A stretch of 64,000 nt of DNA, from the NCBI GenBank assembly GCA_014872815.1, contig WKFK01000014.1, positions 620,001 to 684,000 on the forward strand, in the 5' to 3' direction. A program made the translations under genes and the position numbers. The DNA is from Paracoccaceae bacterium. GTDB taxonomy: Bacteria; Pseudomonadota; Alphaproteobacteria; Rhodobacterales; Rhodobacteraceae. Shown one piece after another: positions 2,148-55,048 of the stretch (within the stretch, counting starts at the first letter, position 1; every line of letters begins with the position of its first letter). Below the pieces are notes generated by a model. It searched no databases, had not been told where the DNA came from, and was given only the letters and a program-made list of their open reading frames with translations.

Positions 2148-2884
2148 TCGGCCGCGCGGCCTCTGTCGCGCTTTTGGGGATGGCCCTTTCGGCCTCCCCG
2201 CTTCCCTCTGCGGCCAATACAGCCTCTGAGTGCCGCATCGCGCTTCTTCTGGCACTCGATGTCAGTTCTTCCGTGGATGCCCATGAGGACATGCTGCAAC
2301 GTCGCGGCCTTGCCGCCGCGCTCACAGCGCCTGAAATCCAAGCCGCCTTCCTCAGCAGCCCGCAATCCGTGGCCTTCTCGGTCTATGAATGGAGCGGCCG
2401 CACACAGCAAAGCACATTGCTCGACTGGACCGTCATCGACAGCCGCCAGACCTTATTGGAGAGCGCGGCCAAACTGGCGCTTTCGAAACGCTCTGCCACC
2501 GAATTTCCAACCGCGCTGGGTCACGCCGTTGGCCATGCCGCCCGTCTGTTTGGACAAGCGCCTGACTGTGATGTCAAAGTGCTCGACGTGAGTGGTGATG
2601 GAGAAAACAACGATGGTTTCACCCCGAAACAGGCCTATGATGCCTTTCCGCTCGACGGTGTGATCGTAAATGCGCTTGCCATTGAAACCTTTGGTGAAAA
2701 GGCGGCGGACCTCGCCGCGCAACCGGGCGACATGGTGGCCTACTACACCCGCGAATTGATCCGGGGACCGGACGCCTTTGTCGAAGTGGCCGATGGCTTT
2801 GACGACTTCGAAAATGCGATGCGCCGCAAACTGTCACGGGAACTCTCCGTAACGGTTCTGGGACAGCTGGATCTGCGCCCATGA
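2144..2884 (+). CDS. Secreted DUF1194 (von Willebrand A-like) protein, copy 1
   Basis: This 246-residue protein is assigned to DUF1194, a von Willebrand factor A-like family common in roseobacters whose function is not established. I take the GTG at 2144 as the start because it gives a four-base GTGA overlap with the gloA stop and a clean signal peptide (hydrophobic core at 8-20, processing near PSAANTA). A longer frame opens with TTG at 2114 but would put charged residues before the signal. The DVSSSVD stretch (D39, S41, S43) has the DxSxS form of a metal-ion-dependent adhesion site. It is probably periplasmic. The next gene is a paralogue joined by an ATGA overlap, suggesting paired action. 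Confidence 0.82.
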   Translation: MIGRAASVALLGMALSASPLPSAANTASECRIALLLALDVSSSVDAHEDMLQRRGLAAALTAPEIQAAFLSSPQSVAFSVYEWSGRTQQSTLLDWTVIDSRQTLLESAAKLALSKRSATEFPTALGHAVGHAARLFGQAPDCDVKVLDVSGDGENNDGFTPKQAYDAFPLDGVIVNALAIETFGEKAADLAAQPGDMVAYYTRELIRGPDAFVEVADGFDDFENAMRRKLSRELSVTVLGQLDLRP

Positions 2885-3597
2885 TCCCACACCTACTGCG
2901 CTGTTTCTGCGCCACGGCTTTCCTCTTGGCTGCACCTGACGCTCAGGCCAATTGCCGCCAGGCACTGGCGCTTGGGCTGGATGTCTCCGGCTCCGTGGAT
3001 AGTGCGGAATATCACATGCAACTCAACGGCTTGGCCGCTGCGCTGGAAAACCAAAGCGTGATGAATGCGCTGTTCCAACCTGGCACGGCGCCCGTGCATC
3101 TTGCAGTCTATGAATGGAGCGGTCCGGGCCACCAAAACCTGATTGTTCCCTGGGTACCCATCACCTCTCACATGGCGCTAACCGATCTGACCACCACACT
3201 GCGCCATCACACGCGCCCGAAAATGGACGTGTCAACGGGTCTTGGTCCAGCCATGCTGTTTGGTGCGGAGCTATTGCACTTTCAACCCAACTGCTGGCGC
3301 TGGACGCTGGACATGTCCGGCGATGGCATTGCCAACACAGGCCCCCTCCCGCGCGACCTCTCGCTACCTGATCACATCACTCTCAATGCACTGGTTATCG
3401 GACCGGGGCAGACCCGCCCACATGGCGAATCTCTGGAAGAGACCACCGCCCTCGTGGCCTATTTTGAGGCCCGCGTGATCCGGGGGGCAGATGCTTTTGT
3501 CGAGGTGGCCAACGGGTTTGAGGATTACGAAGCCGCGATGACGCGCAAACTTCTGCGCGAGTTGGAAGGTCTCTCGCTGGTGCAGGCCCACGACTAA
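2881..3597 (+). CDS. Secreted DUF1194 (von Willebrand A-like) protein, copy 2
   Basis: This is a 238-residue paralogue of the preceding protein. Shared landmarks are the metal-site motif LDVSGSVD (D34, S36, S38), the YEWSG stretch, the DMSGDG/DVSGDG block, and the near-identical C-terminal RGADAFVEVANGFEDYE against RGPDAFVEVADGFDDFE. An N-terminal signal peptide ends near DAQAN. The ATG overlaps the previous stop by four bases, so the two are translationally coupled. The pair looks like an old tandem duplication. The ligand is unknown; von Willebrand A folds usually bind proteins through a divalent metal. Confidence 0.82.
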   Translation: MIPHLLRCFCATAFLLAAPDAQANCRQALALGLDVSGSVDSAEYHMQLNGLAAALENQSVMNALFQPGTAPVHLAVYEWSGPGHQNLIVPWVPITSHMALTDLTTTLRHHTRPKMDVSTGLGPAMLFGAELLHFQPNCWRWTLDMSGDGIANTGPLPRDLSLPDHITLNALVIGPGQTRPHGESLEETTALVAYFEARVIRGADAFVEVANGFEDYEAAMTRKLLRELEGLSLVQAHD

Positions 3598-3726
3598 ACC
3601 CCTGCCGCAAAAGCGATCGCGCAGGAGACGCAAAAACTGGACACCCACAAAAGGAAAAGCGCGCCAAGCCATTCTAGGCGGACGCGCAAAAGCCGCGGAT
3701 TCCCCGTTCTAGGGTGTCCGGGGATG

Positions 3727-4224
3727 TTAGTAGATGTAGCGGATCTGGTCGGTCCAGTAACGCTCCACACGGCGCAAAGCGTGTGTGATCTGTTCAATCC
3801 CGTCGTCGCCCAGCACACCTTTGGCCTGCAAACCTTCGGCGTGGCGCGCAAACAGCTTGGAAATCACATCACGGATTTCACGGCCTTTGTCGGTCAGGCG
3901 CACGCGCACAGAGCGGCGGTCAATTTCGCAACGCTGATGATGCATATAGCCTGCATCCACCAACTTCTTCAGGTTGTAGCTCACGTTGGAGCCTTGATAG
4001 TACCCGCGTGTCTTGAGTTCGCCCGCAGTCACTTCATTGTCGCCAATGTTAAACAGCAGCAATGCCTGTACCGCGTTGATTTCGATAACCCCAACACGCT
4101 CAAACTCGTCTTTGATCACGTCCAGCAACAGCCGGTGCAGGCGCTCGACAAGCGCCAGCGAGTCCAGGTAGTCAGCCATAAATGACTGTTCTGTCCCGCT
4201 TTCCATAGATGAATGAAAGCTCAT
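3727..4224 (-). CDS. MarR-family winged-helix transcriptional regulator
   Basis: This 165-residue regulator has the winged-helix core at about 50-115: LKTRGYYQGSNVSYNLKKL is the recognition helix region and DRRSVRVRLTDKG the wing. The ATG at 4224 is preceded by GGAG at seven bases. It resembles the conserved alphaproteobacterial group that includes LdtR, a cell-wall stress regulator described in Liberibacter and Sinorhizobium; that link is from memory and not checked. It stands alone between convergent DUF1194 genes and the sdhE-XRE pair, so its targets cannot be guessed from context. Confidence 0.85.
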   Translation of the reverse strand: MSFHSSMESGTEQSFMADYLDSLALVERLHRLLLDVIKDEFERVGVIEINAVQALLLFNIGDNEVTAGELKTRGYYQGSNVSYNLKKLVDAGYMHHQRCEIDRRSVRVRLTDKGREIRDVISKLFARHAEGLQAKGVLGDDGIEQITHALRRVERYWTDQIRYIY

Positions 4225-4315
4225 TCTAGTTCTCCGTCAGCTTTGTCTAGCAAACAGATTGACCGAAAAAGCCCAACAAGAGGTTAAACCGTCCAAAAGA
4301 CGTCACAAATTCGCG

Positions 4316-50182: not shown

Positions 50183-50266
50183 GGGCGACAGGCCGCAAGG
50201 TGTGGCAGGGGACTGTAACTCCCTCGCGGAGACGCACGCTTGGTTCGATTCCAAGGTCGCCCACCA
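50183..50266 (+). tRNA. tRNA-Tyr (anticodon GTA)
   Basis: The acceptor stem pairs GGGCGAC at 50183-50189 with GTCGCCC at 50256-50262, followed by A and an encoded CCA at 50264-50266. The D arm is GCC/GGC; the anticodon stem GGGGA/TCCCT encloses CTGTAAC with anticodon GTA. A long class II variable arm (CGCGGAGACGCACG) fits tRNA-Tyr. The T arm is CTTGG-TTCGATT-CCAAG. It lies on the plus strand between rlmB and the FMO operon, both on the minus strand. No integrase is beside it. Confidence 0.95.
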
Positions 50267-50355: not shown

Positions 50356-51150
50356 TTAGGATTGGCTTTCAGTGCGTATCGCGCGGGCCATAACCCAATC
50401 ATAGAGCCGCGGTGACAGGCGCATCATGAGGTCGGACAGCCTGGCGACACGGCCAACAAAAATGTCCAATTTCCCACGCTTCAATCCACGCAGGATGATG
50501 TCGGCAGCCTCCTCCGGCGTCACCACATCCACCGCGTCTTGTGCAGCGCCAGGGCGTGTAAGCCCGTCTGTATCAGCGTCTGGGTTACCCACGTTGGTGG
50601 CCACAAAAGCGGGTGCCGCAATCACGGTTCTCACACCAAAAGCGGCTTCCTCCACCCGCAAGGAAGCAAAAAAGCCCGTCATGGCGTGTTTAGACGCAGC
50701 GTAGCTGGCACGGTGGCGCAATGGGGCGAACCCGGCCACAGAGGTCAGCGCCAAATGCGTGCCTTTGGAGGCGCGCAGCGCTGGCAGAAAGGCTTGAGCC
50801 ATGGCGGCGGCGGCGAAGTAATTGATGTCAAACAGGCGACGATGCGCCTGATCTTGCAGATCTTCGACCGGTGCAATGGCAGTGACCCCTGCCCCGTAGA
50901 TCACCAGATCAATGCTCTGATGACAGGCGAGAATTTTAGAACAGCAATCCCTCAGGGCGCACGGGTCTGTAACGTCGCATTTCATTGGCAACTGCGTTGC
51001 AGATTGGGACAGGTGGTCGACATTCAAGTCTAGCAAAACCACACGCCACCCTTCGGCTTGCAATTTATCTGACAAGGCCGTGCCAAGTCCTCCGCCACCG
51101 CCAGAAATCACGGCCGTTTTTTTCGGGAGTTTGTGAGGAGGCATGGTCAT
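50356..51150 (-). CDS. Short-chain dehydrogenase/reductase
   Basis: The 264-residue classical SDR starts at an ATG overlapping the upstream stop (ATGA). It has the cofactor turn AVISGGGGGLGTAL (TGxxxGxG-like), the catalytic S in LALTSVAGF and YAASKHA (YxxxK). NADP(H) or NAD(H) preference cannot be set by eye. It is the fourth and last gene of the FMO operon, so it probably handles an alcohol or ketone made by the other enzymes. A divergent C-terminus (ARLSDLMMRLSPRLYDWV) suggests membrane association. Confidence 0.88.
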   Translation of the reverse strand: MTMPPHKLPKKTAVISGGGGGLGTALSDKLQAEGWRVVLLDLNVDHLSQSATQLPMKCDVTDPCALRDCCSKILACHQSIDLVIYGAGVTAIAPVEDLQDQAHRRLFDINYFAAAAMAQAFLPALRASKGTHLALTSVAGFAPLRHRASYAASKHAMTGFFASLRVEEAAFGVRTVIAAPAFVATNVGNPDADTDGLTRPGAAQDAVDVVTPEEAADIILRGLKRGKLDIFVGRVARLSDLMMRLSPRLYDWVMARAIRTESQS

Positions 51151-52085
51151 CGATCTTGCGCCTTCAACCAATGTTCGAACACCTCCCGGCTGTTCTTTTC
51201 GGGGGTGTAGCCAAAATCCCGCTTGAGCGCCTCATTGGACAGCACCGGGCGATATTGCAGAAAGCGCACCTGTTCCGGGCCATATTGGGAGAGACCAAGC
51301 GGTTTTGCGATGGTCAGCGCCAGTTTAAAAACCCAAGCAGGCAAACGCAGAATGGGTTTCCCCATGATATCGGCGATCTCTTGCACCCCAAGCGCACCGT
51401 CGCCGGCAACATTGTAGATGCCGGCGGGGCCACCTAAGGCTGCACGCTTCAGAATGCGGGCCAAATCCTGCGTCCAGATAAAGACAAATAGCCCGTCGCT
51501 GCCGCTGACCGCGAGCTGACGCGGTTTACGGAACAGGTCGGTAATTTGGTTGTCCGTCTCCGCCCCAAGCACAGTGCCTACGCGCAAGATCACCTGCTCG
51601 AGGTGTGGCGCGTTTTGGCGGGTTTCGGCCAAAAACTCTTCGACCAATCGCTTGTGGTGGGCATAGGCAAATTCTTCGTTGCCTCGGATGGCGTCGGTTT
51701 CTGTGAGCGGCACCGAGTTGTCAGCGTGGTAGCCGTAGGCTGCGCCAGAGGAGGTCACTACCAGGCGTTTTGTGCCCGCTGCAAGTGCCGCATTTACCAC
51801 GTTTTTTGTACCGGTGACATCCACGTCATAGGCAAAGTCCCGACCACTGCCCGGCGGTGGGGTCACAATAGACGCGAGGTGCACGATCACATCCGGCTGC
51901 AATCGCGCAATGATCCGCAACGGCGCATCGGTGGTGACGTCCATGGGGTGAAAGCGCGCATTCGCAGGCAAGCCTTCTGGCACCATGACGTCACAGGCGA
52001 TGACTTCATGCTCTGTTTCGGCCAGTTCCGCCAAGAGGCTACGCCCAATCATGCCAGCTGCGCCAGTGATCAGAATACGGGTCAT
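51147..52085 (-). CDS. NAD-dependent epimerase/dehydratase-type extended SDR
   Basis: The 312-residue protein has the extended-SDR turn TGAAGMIGRSLL (G8 to G14), DV-type NAD loops, VTSSGAAYG and YAHHKRLVE (YxxxK). It may oxidise a 3-beta-hydroxy or sugar-type substrate; relatives include 3-beta-HSD-like enzymes and epimerases. Start and stop overlap the neighbours by four bases each, so it is in the middle of the operon. The substrate is unknown. Confidence 0.86.
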   Translation of the reverse strand: MTRILITGAAGMIGRSLLAELAETEHEVIACDVMVPEGLPANARFHPMDVTTDAPLRIIARLQPDVIVHLASIVTPPPGSGRDFAYDVDVTGTKNVVNAALAAGTKRLVVTSSGAAYGYHADNSVPLTETDAIRGNEEFAYAHHKRLVEEFLAETRQNAPHLEQVILRVGTVLGAETDNQITDLFRKPRQLAVSGSDGLFVFIWTQDLARILKRAALGGPAGIYNVAGDGALGVQEIADIMGKPILRLPAWVFKLALTIAKPLGLSQYGPEQVRFLQYRPVLSNEALKRDFGYTPEKNSREVFEHWLKAQDR

Positions 52086-52990
52086 CGTGCTGCCTCTGTT
52101 CGGTTCATGAGAGCGGCCACGCCAAGGCCTGTGATCGCGTGCCAGACGCCCCAGAAGGCAGCGACAACGGCCATACCGCCCAAGCCGCCAAAGAAAGCGA
52201 AGATCAGGATCAGGCCAAGACCGGAGTTTTGGATGCCGGTTTCAACTGTCACGGCCCGGCGGTCATAAGGGGACAAGCGCGCGAGTGTGGCAAGACCATA
52301 GCCGCCCGCCAAGGCCAGCGCATTGTGCAGGACCACCAAGAGCGCAACCGCGCCCGCAAAGAGTTTGAAGTTTTGCCAATTATTGGCCAACGCCAAGACG
52401 ATGAAAGCGAGAAAAATCACCATCGAAAGGGTCTGCAACGGGCCACGCAATTTGCCCGCCAGCGTAGGTTTCGCTGCGCGCAGTGTCACGCCTAGTATGA
52501 GGGGCAGCACCAGCATGAAGCCCACTGTAATCGCCACAGAGACCGGGTCAATCTTGGTCGCTTGAAGGATGTCGCGCGTGGGCGCGTAAATTCCGCCCCA
52601 CAGAGCAATATTGAGCGGTGTCAAAAGGATCGCGCCGACGGTGGCAAAGGCCGTCATCGACACCGACAGCGCCGCATTGCCGCCCGCACGGTGGGTGATG
52701 AAGTTGGAAATATTGCCGCCCGGACAGGCCGCGACCAGCATCAGCCCCAATGCAATAGACGGTTGCGGCTGCGTGATCAGCACCAACACAAACGTCAGCG
52801 CGGGCAACAGCAGGAACTGACTGGCCAGACCGGTCAGCAAGGCGCGAGGTGTATACAGCAAGCGGCGAAAATCGCTTGGTGTGAGGTCAATGGCGATGGA
52901 GAACATCACAACTGCCAAAACCGCGTTTAACACGGTCATGGAGGTCGCACTAAAGTTGAGCGCAACGCTGTCTATGGCAGTGGGGTCCAT
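52082..52990 (-). CDS. BASS-family (bile acid:sodium symporter-type) transporter
   Basis: The 302-residue inner-membrane protein has about nine or ten segments. The BASS crossover regions are ACPGGNISNFIT and VETGIQNSGLGL, with LPALTFVLVLI and LVLPLILGVTL around them. These carriers bring in organic anions with Na+; bacterial members also move other acids. It is the second gene of the FMO operon and overlaps both neighbours, so import of the FMO substrate is the obvious guess. Confidence 0.88.
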   Translation of the reverse strand: MDPTAIDSVALNFSATSMTVLNAVLAVVMFSIAIDLTPSDFRRLLYTPRALLTGLASQFLLLPALTFVLVLITQPQPSIALGLMLVAACPGGNISNFITHRAGGNAALSVSMTAFATVGAILLTPLNIALWGGIYAPTRDILQATKIDPVSVAITVGFMLVLPLILGVTLRAAKPTLAGKLRGPLQTLSMVIFLAFIVLALANNWQNFKLFAGAVALLVVLHNALALAGGYGLATLARLSPYDRRAVTVETGIQNSGLGLILIFAFFGGLGGMAVVAAFWGVWHAITGLGVAALMNRTEAAR

Positions 52991-54303
52991 CAGCCCTGCC
53001 CTGTCTGCAACGATTTGATCCAGCCGGTCACCGCACCGCGATATGTGGCTTTGTCTACATAATACGCCATGCGGGGCACATCGAGATAGTCCATCCCGCC
53101 GGTGGCACGACCAAAGCCGGCGGACTTCTTGGACTGCAATTTTTTCGCAGCCTTTGTACCATCCCGTAAGCCGGTGATGTAGCGCGCCACCATTTCCGCC
53201 TGCTCGTGCCGTCCCTGCCAGCCAAGGCCCGTGGCCTCCACCATGCCCAGCACAAAGAGATCGTCCCGCGCCGGATGGAAGGCATTGAGGTAGAGATGCG
53301 GTGCGTCCCCGCGCCAGTTCAGCAACGTTTTGTCGATGAAAGGATAGTGCAGCTTGTAGCCCGTGGCGGCGAGGATCATGTCGTAGTCCGCCGCGGCGCC
53401 GTCTTTGAACGTCACGGTGTGACCCGAAATGTCTGCGATATCTCCTCGAATGGCGATGTCGCCATGTCCCGCGTGATACAGCACCAAAGAGTTCACCACC
53501 GGATGGCTTTCATAAAGTTTGTAGTCGGGTTTAGGGAAGCCGTATTTCTGCGGATCGCCCACAAACCACTTCAGGATCAGACTGTCGATCGGGCGCTTGA
53601 GCCACATCGGCAGCTTGATCGCCCCGCCCATTGTGTCTGCCGGTTTGCCAAAGACGTATTTGGGCACAAAGTAGTAGCCGCGCCGCATGGAGATATCGCA
53701 GCTTGCGCCATGGTGCACGGCATCTACGGCAATGTCGCAACCGGAGTTCCCTGCCCCCACGATCAAAACGCGCTTGCCGGCAAACTGCTCCGGATGGCGA
53801 TACTTTGAGGCGTGGATCAGTTCGCCGTCAAACTGGCCCGGGAACTGCGGCATGTTGGGCTCGCTCAGCGTGCCATTGGCAATCAAAACACCGGCATAGA
53901 CCGCCTCACTCTGCTGACCGTCTTGACGAGTGACCACCCGCCAGCCCTCGCCGCTCTCCCCCACAGGAGACACCTGCACCACTTCGGTATTGAACTGGTA
54001 GTTACGGCGCAAATCAAAATGCTCTGCAAAGTCGCGGAAATACTGCGCCATCTCGCGATGGGACGGGTATTCGGCCACCTCCGCTTTCATCGGGAAGTCG
54101 GCAAACTCTGTCATGGTTTTAGACGAGATCAGATGCGCGCTCTCATACATGGTGGAGCGTGGCGCCTCGATGTCCCACAGGCCACCCACATCGCCGTGCA
54201 GTTCAAAACCGTCAAAAGAGATGCCCTGCTCCTTCAGAACCTTGGCCATCGCCAGCCCCATGGGCCCCGCTCCAATGAGCGCAAATTTGTCGCTTGTGTG
54301 CAT
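52990..54303 (-). CDS. Flavin-containing monooxygenase
   Basis: The 437-residue class B flavoprotein has the FAD turn GAGPMG at 11-16, the FMO fingerprint FDGELIHASKYR at 158-169 (FxGxxxHxxxYR), and the NADPH turn GAGNSG at 183-188, with ATGYK late. It fits N/S-oxygenases or Baeyer-Villiger enzymes. It is first of four overlapping genes (FMO, BASS carrier, two SDRs) and divergent from a TetR gene. The ATG has GAGAGGAAG upstream. Likely substrates are organic acids, sterol-like compounds or amines, not decided by sequence. Confidence 0.9.
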   Translation of the reverse strand: MHTSDKFALIGAGPMGLAMAKVLKEQGISFDGFELHGDVGGLWDIEAPRSTMYESAHLISSKTMTEFADFPMKAEVAEYPSHREMAQYFRDFAEHFDLRRNYQFNTEVVQVSPVGESGEGWRVVTRQDGQQSEAVYAGVLIANGTLSEPNMPQFPGQFDGELIHASKYRHPEQFAGKRVLIVGAGNSGCDIAVDAVHHGASCDISMRRGYYFVPKYVFGKPADTMGGAIKLPMWLKRPIDSLILKWFVGDPQKYGFPKPDYKLYESHPVVNSLVLYHAGHGDIAIRGDIADISGHTVTFKDGAAADYDMILAATGYKLHYPFIDKTLLNWRGDAPHLYLNAFHPARDDLFVLGMVEATGLGWQGRHEQAEMVARYITGLRDGTKAAKKLQSKKSAGFGRATGGMDYLDVPRMAYYVDKATYRGAVTGWIKSLQTGQG

Positions 54304-54367
54304 CGGCTTCCTCTCCCCCAGAGAGCTTTAAATTGAACATCCGTTAAAAATAAGGCAAGGTCTTTTT

Positions 54368-55048
54368 ATGCTGAAAGATATTCCTCAAGAAAAACAACGG
54401 CAAAGGGCCCCATCCAAACGGGCTTTGGAAACCCGCGCGCGGATTATGGACGCGGCTGAACGGGTGTTTGCCCGCAGCGGATTTGATGCGGCCTCGATTC
54501 GAGACATCGCCGCCGAGGCAGAGGTGCAAGGCGCGCTGGTGAACCACCACGGCGGCAGCAAGGAGGAACTGTTTTGGCGTGTGGTGGCACGGCGGGCGGA
54601 TGTTTTGGGCGATGCCCGTGTCGCCGCATTGGAGACCCGCAAAGCACATGGTCCGCTAACCGTGCCCGCTATTCTGGAGTGTTTCTTCGGGCCGTTTTTT
54701 GAACATGTCGACGTGGGCGGCCCACAGTGGGTGGCCTACGCGCGGATTGTGGCCTTTGTGTCAGCGGATGACCGCTGGAAGGATCTGGCGGCAATCTGTT
54801 TTGACCCGACCGCCAACCGCTTTGTTGAAGAACTAGCCGCGCTCTACGCACCACAGGCCCGCTCCTCCGTGGCAAGCGGATTTGTCTACGCAGTGGCGAG
54901 CATGTTGGCGCTGATCACGTCGCAATGGCGCATGGAGGCGCTCGGTGACGCGCCCATCAACGCAGCTGACCATCTGGACAAACTTGTCGCCTTTTGTGCC
55001 GCAGGGATCGATGCGGCGGCACAGCGTGAAGGGTCGCAAACGACTTAA
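54368..55048 (+). CDS. TetR-family regulator of the FMO operon
   Basis: The 226-residue protein has an N-terminal helix-turn-helix (RALETRARIMDAAERVFARS, then IRDIAAEAEVQGALVNHH) and a long helical ligand domain (about 90-215). It is divergent from the FMO gene with 64 bases between, the usual arrangement for a local repressor. The gap holds A+T-rich TTTAA/TTAAA ends but no perfect palindrome that I can see. Its 3' end overlaps the convergent gene at 55045. Confidence 0.88.
   Translation: MLKDIPQEKQRQRAPSKRALETRARIMDAAERVFARSGFDAASIRDIAAEAEVQGALVNHHGGSKEELFWRVVARRADVLGDARVAALETRKAHGPLTVPAILECFFGPFFEHVDVGGPQWVAYARIVAFVSADDRWKDLAAICFDPTANRFVEELAALYAPQARSSVASGFVYAVASMLALITSQWRMEALGDAPINAADHLDKLVAFCAAGIDAAAQREGSQTT

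Follow-up and report, generated by a model that had tools for sequence, protein, structure and literature searches.

Gene organization and recurrence

Four tightly packed genes and a divergent regulator gene, located within the window (the whole stretch of 64,000 nucleotides that was analyzed), recur as a set in many bacterial genomes, and they rather probably constitute a self-contained, locally regulated operon for the uptake and oxidation, that is the catabolism, of an organic anion. The set occupies positions 54303-50356 of the minus strand. The gene for a flavin-containing monooxygenase-like protein (FMO; 52990..54303, 437 aa) is followed on this strand by those for a BASS/SBF-family carrier (52082..52990, 302 aa), an extended SDR of the NAD-dependent epimerase/dehydratase family (eSDR; 51147..52085, 312 aa) and a classical SDR (cSDR; 50356..51150, 264 aa from the ATG at 51150, which was taken as the start, the longest open frame beginning at TTG 51171). 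The gene for a TetR-family regulator adjoins on the plus strand (54368..55048, 226 aa). Both the divergence of this gene and the overlaps of 1 to 4 bases described in the earlier note are confirmed by the open reading frames: the BASS gene overlaps the FMO stop codon by 1 base (TGATG), while the BASS/eSDR and eSDR/cSDR junctions overlap by 4 bases each (ATGA). In 24 close homologues, for which start codons were picked by script, the FMO/BASS junction was -1 in 7 and -4 in 17, the BASS/eSDR junction was -4 in 23 (L034 has a split eSDR frame at this point), and the eSDR/cSDR junction was -4 in 11, -7 in 1, and -25 in 12. This recurrence of overlapping junctions indicates that the overlaps are more than chance. 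The divergent TetR/FMO gap, 64 bp in the window, measured 60-80 bp in all 24 homologues.

A neighborhood search was run for the co-occurrence of FMO homologues with BASS, two SDRs, and TetR. The FMO-BASS-eSDR-cSDR order was found in 77 of 80 loci, the other three ending at a contig edge, where the 80 are the best of 490 confirmed candidates and thus the closest relatives rather than a random draw. All five genes, TetR included, stood together in 24/24 close homologues, so that the possibility raised against the original proposal, that homologues do not co-occur in other genomes, did not hold. Ten of these 24 loci stand on contigs equal in length to contigs of the 80-locus set and were counted once, giving 94 distinct loci. 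Genera carrying the module among the best 80 of 490 include Shimia, Ruegeria, Sulfitobacter, Celeribacter, Thioclava, Hoeflea, and Labrenzia, besides others, with Shimia sagamensis DSM 29734 and Ruegeria marisrubri ZGT118 among the isolates, and the order is constant across genera with differing flanks. Its spread is patchy: within the genus, 20 of the 25 genomes carry the module, as against 3 of the 35 from elsewhere in the family, and it appears to have moved between genomes. Since the same set is found at unrelated places in many bacterial genomes, the four genes and the regulator very probably represent one working pathway.

The flanks were also searched for any additional gene of the pathway that might be conserved. 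The largest non-module family was present in 9 of the 80 loci (best 80 of 490), and as no outside family exceeded that number the candidate was dropped. Of the 80 loci, 72 yielded FMO in the clusters of open reading frames, 64 eSDR, 62 cSDR, 51 TetR, and 50 BASS, and the clusters numbered 5-7, 9, and 17 resemble antisense frames over the operon; the caller is therefore imperfect, and the 9-locus gene may occur in somewhat more loci, although not in most.

Regulator and predicted operator

The regulator contains the TetR_N (PF00440) and TetR_C_30 (PF17939) domains, and its closest solved structures are NicR (5fhp) and next 2fbq. Its probable operator is the palindrome TTTAACGGATGTTCAA (54333..54348, read on the minus strand; consensus TTGAAC-N4-GTTCAA). 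Such a palindrome was found in the FMO/TetR gap of 56 of the 70 loci with a divergent TetR gene and in none of the 10 without (best 80 of 490; Fisher 1.2e-6, a value that overstates independence because the loci are related). By the same test, the other 14 of the 70 TetR-bearing loci are without it (best 80 of 490), and the pattern appeared in 71 of 8000 shuffled upstream regions. At L032 and L060 both half-sites are altered together, to TTGTAC/GTACAA. The palindrome hence goes with the TetR gene, as local autoregulation implies, and TetR probably binds it. Beside the operator lies a conserved TTGCCTTA block (54351..54358, minus strand), which may be the -35 region of the promoter serving the operon; it is present in 23 of 24 FMO/TetR gaps and is replaced by TTGTCTTA in L049. 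A sigma-70 scan of the gap, this block included, scored no site.

Properties of the encoded proteins

The FMO matches the FMO-like family PF00743 with 204 bits against a gathering score of 22 (E 3.9e-60). Both GxGxxG motifs, FxGxxxHxxxY, and ATGY are kept in the alignment, and the FxGxxxHxxxYR motif reported earlier was located at residues 158-169. FxGxxxHxxx[YFW] is found in 77/80 loci (best 80 of 490) and in 33/36 more distant FMO-type loci. At the position of DiatB N57, which we take to be the active-site Asn, the window protein has Ile59, the corresponding motif HLISS[KR] recurring in 79/80 loci (best 80 of 490) and 35/36 distant ones, and it has Glu356 where DiatB has R360; ordinary monooxygenation by the FMO is thus not assured. 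In six less related FMOs, the position of Ile59 is occupied by Ile in three (L035-L037), Asn in one, and Asp in two. The protein has the fold and cofactor sites of an FMO, and monooxygenation is its candidate function.

The BASS carrier matches SBF (PF01758) with 114 bits against a gathering score of 24 (E 7.7e-33). Residues Q58, S95, N96, T113, E250, and Q254 are the same as in 3zuy and invariant in 17 sequences, and Ala114 replaces one Ser of 3zuy; these 3zuy residues, the Ser included, presumably bind Na+. Retention of the residues at the Na+ sites of a solved homologue of bile acid carriers makes import of an anion by BASS reasonable.

The eSDR matches Epimerase (PF01370; 97 bits, E 2e-27) and carries both TGxxGxxG and YxxxK; in the alignment Y141 and K145 are invariant and D32 is nearly so. 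Its predicted model (pLDDT 92) displays the fold of UDP-glucose 4-epimerase (Z 30). The 50 PDB fold matches listed all lie at Z 28-30 and are nearly all sugar-nucleotide enzymes, which tells no function of eSDR apart, and in a PHROGs search a nucleotide-sugar epimerase family was the sole match. Identification of eSDR as UDP-glucose epimerase was dropped, TIGR01179 yielding 62 bits against a cut-off of 262. The cSDR matches adh_short (PF00106; 129 bits, E 2e-37), and its catalytic Ser-Tyr-Lys (S137, Y150, K154) and D41 are invariant in 17 sequences. YxxxK is kept in both SDRs, as is the Asp that follows strand 2, by rule a mark of the NAD type, and by sequence both are predicted to be NAD-dependent dehydrogenases. 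In searches of plasmid records, the FMO gave 21 matches, every one below 60% identity, BASS gave one (Tunicatimonas, without other module genes nearby), and eSDR gave none.

Exchange of the FMO position in distant loci

The distant set comprises 54 loci (L164-L177 and L221-L260), selected for an eSDR match with E no higher than 1e-45. Outside this set stand the close homologues L178 and L179, as well as L220, L154, L156, and L158, which were not among the loci mapped with flanks. Beside the eSDR gene, 36 of the 54 carry an FMO, 12 a CxxCH/beta-propeller protein together with an MFS carrier, and 2 a ThDP enzyme; 4 have none of these partners, and no locus combines two. BASS accompanies 34 of the 36 FMO-type loci (undetected in L256 and L259), and cSDR was undetected in 7 of the 36. 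The TetR of the window was detected in none of the 54. IclR genes lie near 9 and AraC-type genes near 16 of the 36 FMO-type loci. Three distant loci, L166, L172, and L174, have PF12625 AraC-type regulators. In other groups of the phylum (L168, L174-L176), the module persists with its gene order reshuffled, and at one locus, L258, eSDR and cSDR are naturally fused. The proposal of a unit of four genes plus TetR stands with regard to co-occurrence and local TetR control, but since BASS and cSDR went undetected at some distant loci and the TetR of the window at all of them, the core of the module is smaller and more flexible than at first read.

It is conceivable, if doubtful, that all these loci serve one catabolic pathway with BASS, eSDR, and cSDR as its core, in which a single step is performed by any of three unrelated proteins, namely the FMO, the ThDP enzyme, or the CxxCH/beta-propeller protein, and in which the FMO is a C-C-cleaving enzyme and not an N- or S-oxygenase. 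Such a step would be a cleavage or an oxidation beside the carbonyl made by an SDR. With respect to the proteins concerned, the FMO is without the usual active-site Asn, and the CxxCH/beta-propeller protein, which has one CxxCH, is probably secreted.

Proposed pathway and alternative explanations

For the uptake-and-oxidation operon that we favor, the following course can be proposed from the gene and protein features. A TetR dimer on the palindrome in the 64-bp gap would repress both promoters until released by an effector. A single message carrying FMO, BASS, eSDR, and cSDR would then be produced, its translation coupled via the overlaps. BASS may import the organic anion together with Na+, after which eSDR and cSDR would take consecutive hydroxyl/carbonyl steps and the FMO would apply O2 beside the newly made carbonyl. 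As the module has no other dedicated gene that is conserved, the product would then pass into general metabolism. Of the reading given in the earlier note, one unit under local TetR control is well supported by co-occurrence and the palindrome, and anion import remains reasonable in view of the Na+-site residues, but the ordinary monooxygenase role of the FMO has become uncertain owing to Ile59.

It is possible, though we regard it as unlikely, that the operon belongs to a branched-chain or fatty acyl-CoA regulon, its substrate being a fatty-acid-like anion, either branched or long-chain, and its regulator sensing that anion or the CoA ester. Branched-chain and fatty-acid regulators are reportedly treated by Kazakov et al. 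In the 3.96-Mb genome the palindrome TTNAACNNNNGTTCAA occurs at three places, versus one for a reversed control pattern; apart from the operon, it lies 19 bp and 99 bp before acyl-CoA dehydrogenase genes that are read as isovaleryl-CoA and isobutyryl-CoA dehydrogenase, respectively. Neither protein attains an NCBIfam cut-off, which counts against the regulon and makes these substrates our own reading. The gene after the second dehydrogenase is that of a 3-hydroxyisobutyryl-CoA hydrolase (NCBIfam 372 bits, cut-off 274), so that valine fits there. TetR also weakly matches PsrA (61 bits) and 2fbq, presumably a fatty-acid sensor, and in the one FMO plasmid record whose neighborhood was inspected, from Burkholderia, a 41%-identical FMO stands in the order AraC-FMO-SDR-DUF962; the substrates of DUF962 proteins are 2-hydroxy fatty acids. 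However, over 16 genomes of the genus the counts of the pattern sum to 52 against 35 for the reversed control, a modest excess, with neighbors examined for 22 of the 34 sites outside the operon. Genomes G001 and G005, which are without the operon, retain the site before the valine-type dehydrogenase, implying that a different regulator probably binds there, a point that also weighs against the favored operon reading because another protein can thus probably occupy the palindrome. No close TetR paralogue was found in the window's own genome, and the conserved flank families (best 80 of 490) include neither a CoA ligase nor an enzyme of acyl-CoA metabolism.

TetR regulators frequently control detoxification, and DiatB, the closest FMO of solved structure, is likewise a single flavin monooxygenase; both points fit a role in the making or tailoring of a product or in detoxification, with BASS exporting or recycling, instead of nutrient catabolism. 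We consider this rather improbable, as a search of the flanks (best 80 of 490) showed no conserved gene for a synthase, carrier protein, ligase, or efflux pump, BASS retains the residues matching the Na+ sites of a solved BASS protein, and a number of the distant FMO-type loci have nearby IclR or AraC-type genes, which are typical for catabolic genes. Patchy distribution and unrelated flanks would also be expected if the genes traveled together by shared transfer only, as a selfish operon without a common substrate, but the retention of the set in other groups of the phylum despite reshuffled order, the eSDR-cSDR fusion, and the exchange of the FMO position make this very improbable. Trimethylamine/dimethylsulfide monooxygenase (Tmm) is common among marine bacteria and shares a superfamily with the FMO, which matches NF058570; yet this match scores 107 bits where the cut-off is 675, the FMO is nearer DiatB and animal-type FMOs than Tmm, and the neighboring genes seem unsuited to trimethylamine, so that Tmm has almost no probability and was dropped as a candidate.

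The catabolic operon for an organic anion is the reading that we carry forward. A strictly conserved module that is frequent in culturable marine bacteria offers a direct route to some metabolite on which many such bacteria must draw. That three unrelated enzymes occupy one position in related clusters provides a chemical clue to the reaction as well as a comparative test, and with the predicted operator a reporter that responds to the inducer could readily be built. In a search of open-licence papers, a description of the gene combination was not found, which owing to that scope is weak evidence of novelty, nor was a paper naming DiatB found when its structure (8Z12) was sought.

Comparison with known systems

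The mymA operon of Mycobacterium combines FMO and SDR genes under the AraC-type regulator VirS and includes lipase, ligase, and alcohol dehydrogenase genes. It resembles the present module in bringing FMO and SDR genes together, and VirS can be set against the PF12625 regulators of the distant loci, but mymA is not known to include BASS or an extended SDR. DiatB (PDB 8z12, 8z16, 8z17) is closest to the FMO by sequence (8z16, E 2.2e-56; 8z12, E 4e-56), and 8z12 is also its closest solved fold (E 3.3e-34, TM 0.82), as taken from the whole predicted model with a mean pLDDT of 76 and most of residues 208-270 below 50. Length and motifs are alike, whereas identity is 31% and N57 and R360, mutated in 8z16 and 8z17, are exchanged in the FMO. 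GalE (UDP-glucose 4-epimerase) and other extended SDRs have fold and YxxxK in common with eSDR, which differs from GalE in its identity of about 20% and in that no sugar genes adjoin within the module. TetR regulators of the PsrA/NicR type (TetR_C_30) share the domain pair and partial similarity with the window regulator, which lies well under the cut-off of 300 bits for the PsrA model NF053516. Finally, the window BASS stays below the NCBIfam cut-offs of TIGR00841 (175 versus 326 bits) and PanS NF047939 (112 versus 400), but it has PF01758 and the residues matching the Na+ sites in common with the BASS/SBF carriers 3zuy and PanS.

Organization and Conservation of the Module

Four genes lie on the minus strand, encoding a flavin-containing monooxygenase-like protein (FMO, 54303-52990), a BASS/SBF-family carrier (BASS, 52990-52082), an extended SDR (eSDR, 52085-51147) and a classical SDR (cSDR, 51150-50356), with a TetR gene diverging on the plus strand (54368-55048). 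These coordinates, obtained from ORF calls, are those at which the earlier note had placed all five genes, and Pfam families were assigned to each. Its claim of overlaps of 1-4 bases is borne out by junctions of 1, 4 and 4 bases; for cSDR the longest listed frame opens at TTG 51171, while ATG 51150 yields the usual ATGA junction. A tRNA-Tyr gene (50183-50266, plus strand, opposite the operon) is located just past the operon end.

The proposed check of gene order around FMO homologues was run and gave the same picture. The complete TetR / FMO-BASS-eSDR-cSDR arrangement was present in all 24 closest loci, with the FMO/BASS and eSDR/cSDR junctions overlapping in 24/24 and the BASS/eSDR junction in 23/24. 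In the one exception, L034, eSDR is split in two frames near codon 78, reflecting a frameshift or a sequencing error. A scan of named genomes confirmed 490 candidates, and the best 80 were used; the four-gene order was kept in 77 of these loci, the remaining 3 running into a contig end, and a divergent TetR gene was found in 70. The genera included Shimia, Ruegeria, Sulfitobacter, Celeribacter, Thioclava, Hoeflea and Labrenzia, among others. Since ten contigs are apparently shared by the two sets, these represent about 94 distinct loci. When the flanks of the best 80 of 490 were clustered by ORF, non-module families were seen in 9 loci at most, a count made by imperfect clustering that recovered BASS itself in just 50/80. 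Thus, the conserved unit is the module genes alone, placed at many different sites. FMO matches of E 1e-40 or better were obtained in 29/100 genomes, and such FMO-positive genomes made up 20/25 of the same genus and 3/35 of the others of the same family.

Candidate Operator and Its Recurrence

Within the FMO/TetR gaps of the 24 closest loci, TTGCCTTA occurs in 23 and is followed by a palindrome approximating TTGAAC-N4-GTTCAA, located at 54333-54348 in the window as a putative TetR operator. It can be observed that in L032 and L060 both halves are altered jointly, to TTGTAC/GTACAA. Among the best 80 of 490, a relaxed form precedes FMO in 56/70 loci with a divergent TetR gene vs 0/10 without (Fisher 1.2e-6, a guide only, since related loci are not independent), and a match was seen in 71/8000 letter-shuffled copies of those upstream regions; the relaxed test did not detect it in 14 of the 70. 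We infer that TetR binds this palindrome. TetR carries TetR_C_30 and resembles the TetR-type regulators NicR and, weakly, PsrA.

The strict palindrome occurs at three places in the genome to which the window belongs, compared with one for the reversed control. Besides the operon itself, it lies at two places outside the window: L264 5017-5032, 19 bp upstream of a gene for an acyl-CoA dehydrogenase that we read as isovaleryl-CoA dehydrogenase, and L265 4011-4026, 99 bp upstream of a second such gene, whose product we read as isobutyryl-CoA dehydrogenase. Neither product reaches an NCBIfam cut-off; the gene following the isobutyryl-type dehydrogenase passes that for 3-hydroxyisobutyryl-CoA hydrolase. 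Across 16 genomes of the genus there were 34 sites outside the operon, and 17 of the 22 with examined neighbours precede one of these two dehydrogenase genes (isovaleryl-type 5, isobutyryl-type 12), the other 5 lying elsewhere. Either a second regulator, one controlling branched-chain catabolism, uses the TetR site as well, or something else accounts for the resemblance. Two of the 12 isobutyryl-type sites are in genomes without the operon (G001, G005), and the 16 genomes gave 52 pattern rows vs 35 for the reversed control, a modest excess. A second regulator using the same palindrome is likely. Because the palindrome recurs before both dehydrogenase genes, a fatty or branched acyl compound may be considered as the module substrate.

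Features of the Individual Proteins

BASS residues Q58, S95, N96, T113, E250 and Q254 are the same as those of 3zuy, a solved bile-acid-carrier homologue, and are invariant among the aligned homologues; their 3zuy counterparts presumably bind Na+. A further residue that we take to be a 3zuy Na+ site, Ser133, corresponds to Ala114. The predicted eSDR model (pLDDT 92) adopts a UDP-glucose-epimerase fold (Z 30). Identity as GalE was considered, and the family cut-off was not reached. In cSDR, Ser137, Tyr150, Lys154 and Asp41 are invariant in the alignment. An Asp following the second strand of an SDR is associated with NAD preference, and this residue points to NAD as the cofactor of both SDRs.

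The FMO alignment shows conservation of the two nucleotide motifs as well as of FxGxxxHxxxY and ATGY, and an HLISS[KR] motif was found in 79/80 loci (best 80 of 490) and in 35/36 distant FMO loci. The nearest solved structure is DiatB, whose N57 and R360, mutated in entries N57A and R360A, align with Ile59 and Glu356. Both of the latter are invariant in the homologue alignment; Ile59 is not unique to the module, since 3/6 less related FMOs also have Ile there.

Exchange of Partners at Distant Loci

In a wider survey, eSDR homologues of E 1e-45 or better were found in 13/398 genomes of the phylum, 12/385 of the class, 29/194 of one order and 18/150 of one family; three genomes of another family held none besides one known case. 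Flanks were mapped for 54 eSDR loci outside the close set. FMO accompanies 36 of these, with BASS in 34 and a detected cSDR in 29. Twelve others (L172, L173, L221-L225, L229, L237, L238, L244, L257) carry a one-CxxCH, Vgb-lyase-like propeller protein beside an MFS carrier, with BASS in 10 and a detected cSDR in 7; judged by eye, this protein, with the motif CxxCHQQG, is probably secreted. Two loci have a ThDP enzyme belonging to the acetolactate-synthase family, with BASS in one and cSDR in both. At the remaining 4 (L165, L169-L171; eSDR identity 43-50%), no partner enzyme, BASS or cSDR was detected near eSDR; a weakly similar AraC-type gene lies close to it in L169-L171. None of the 54 combined two of the three partners, and the window TetR was detected in none. 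Regulators similar to the query genes at the 36 FMO loci were IclR in 9, AraC-type in 16, LysR in 2 and none of these in 9.

In a quickly built eSDR tree covering 72 loci, at least 4 changes are needed to account for the three partner labels, well-supported branches alone forcing fewer. Moreover, in L258, on a short contig, eSDR and cSDR form a single open frame (2483-4252) with both domains present, adjoining a ThDP enzyme and BASS; it is the sole fusion found. This partner exchange and fusion indicate that eSDR works jointly with cSDR and that the FMO position is replaceable by other chemistry. A related FMO (41%) was also seen on a Burkholderia ambifaria plasmid (L314) within an AraC-FMO-SDR-DUF962 set, where DUF962 presumably suggests lipid chemistry.

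Proposed Mechanism and Comparison with Known Systems

In the proposed scheme, the four genes would be co-transcribed, with TetR repressing them and then releasing. BASS would import an anion, driven by Na+, FMO would perform an O2-dependent step, and the SDRs would carry out NAD-dependent oxidation. The exchange of FMO with a ThDP enzyme, seen at only two loci, may suggest carbon-carbon chemistry adjacent to a carbonyl. In the open-licence literature searched, no description was found of the gene combination, its breadth or the exchangeable partner; every module protein is a member of a known family.
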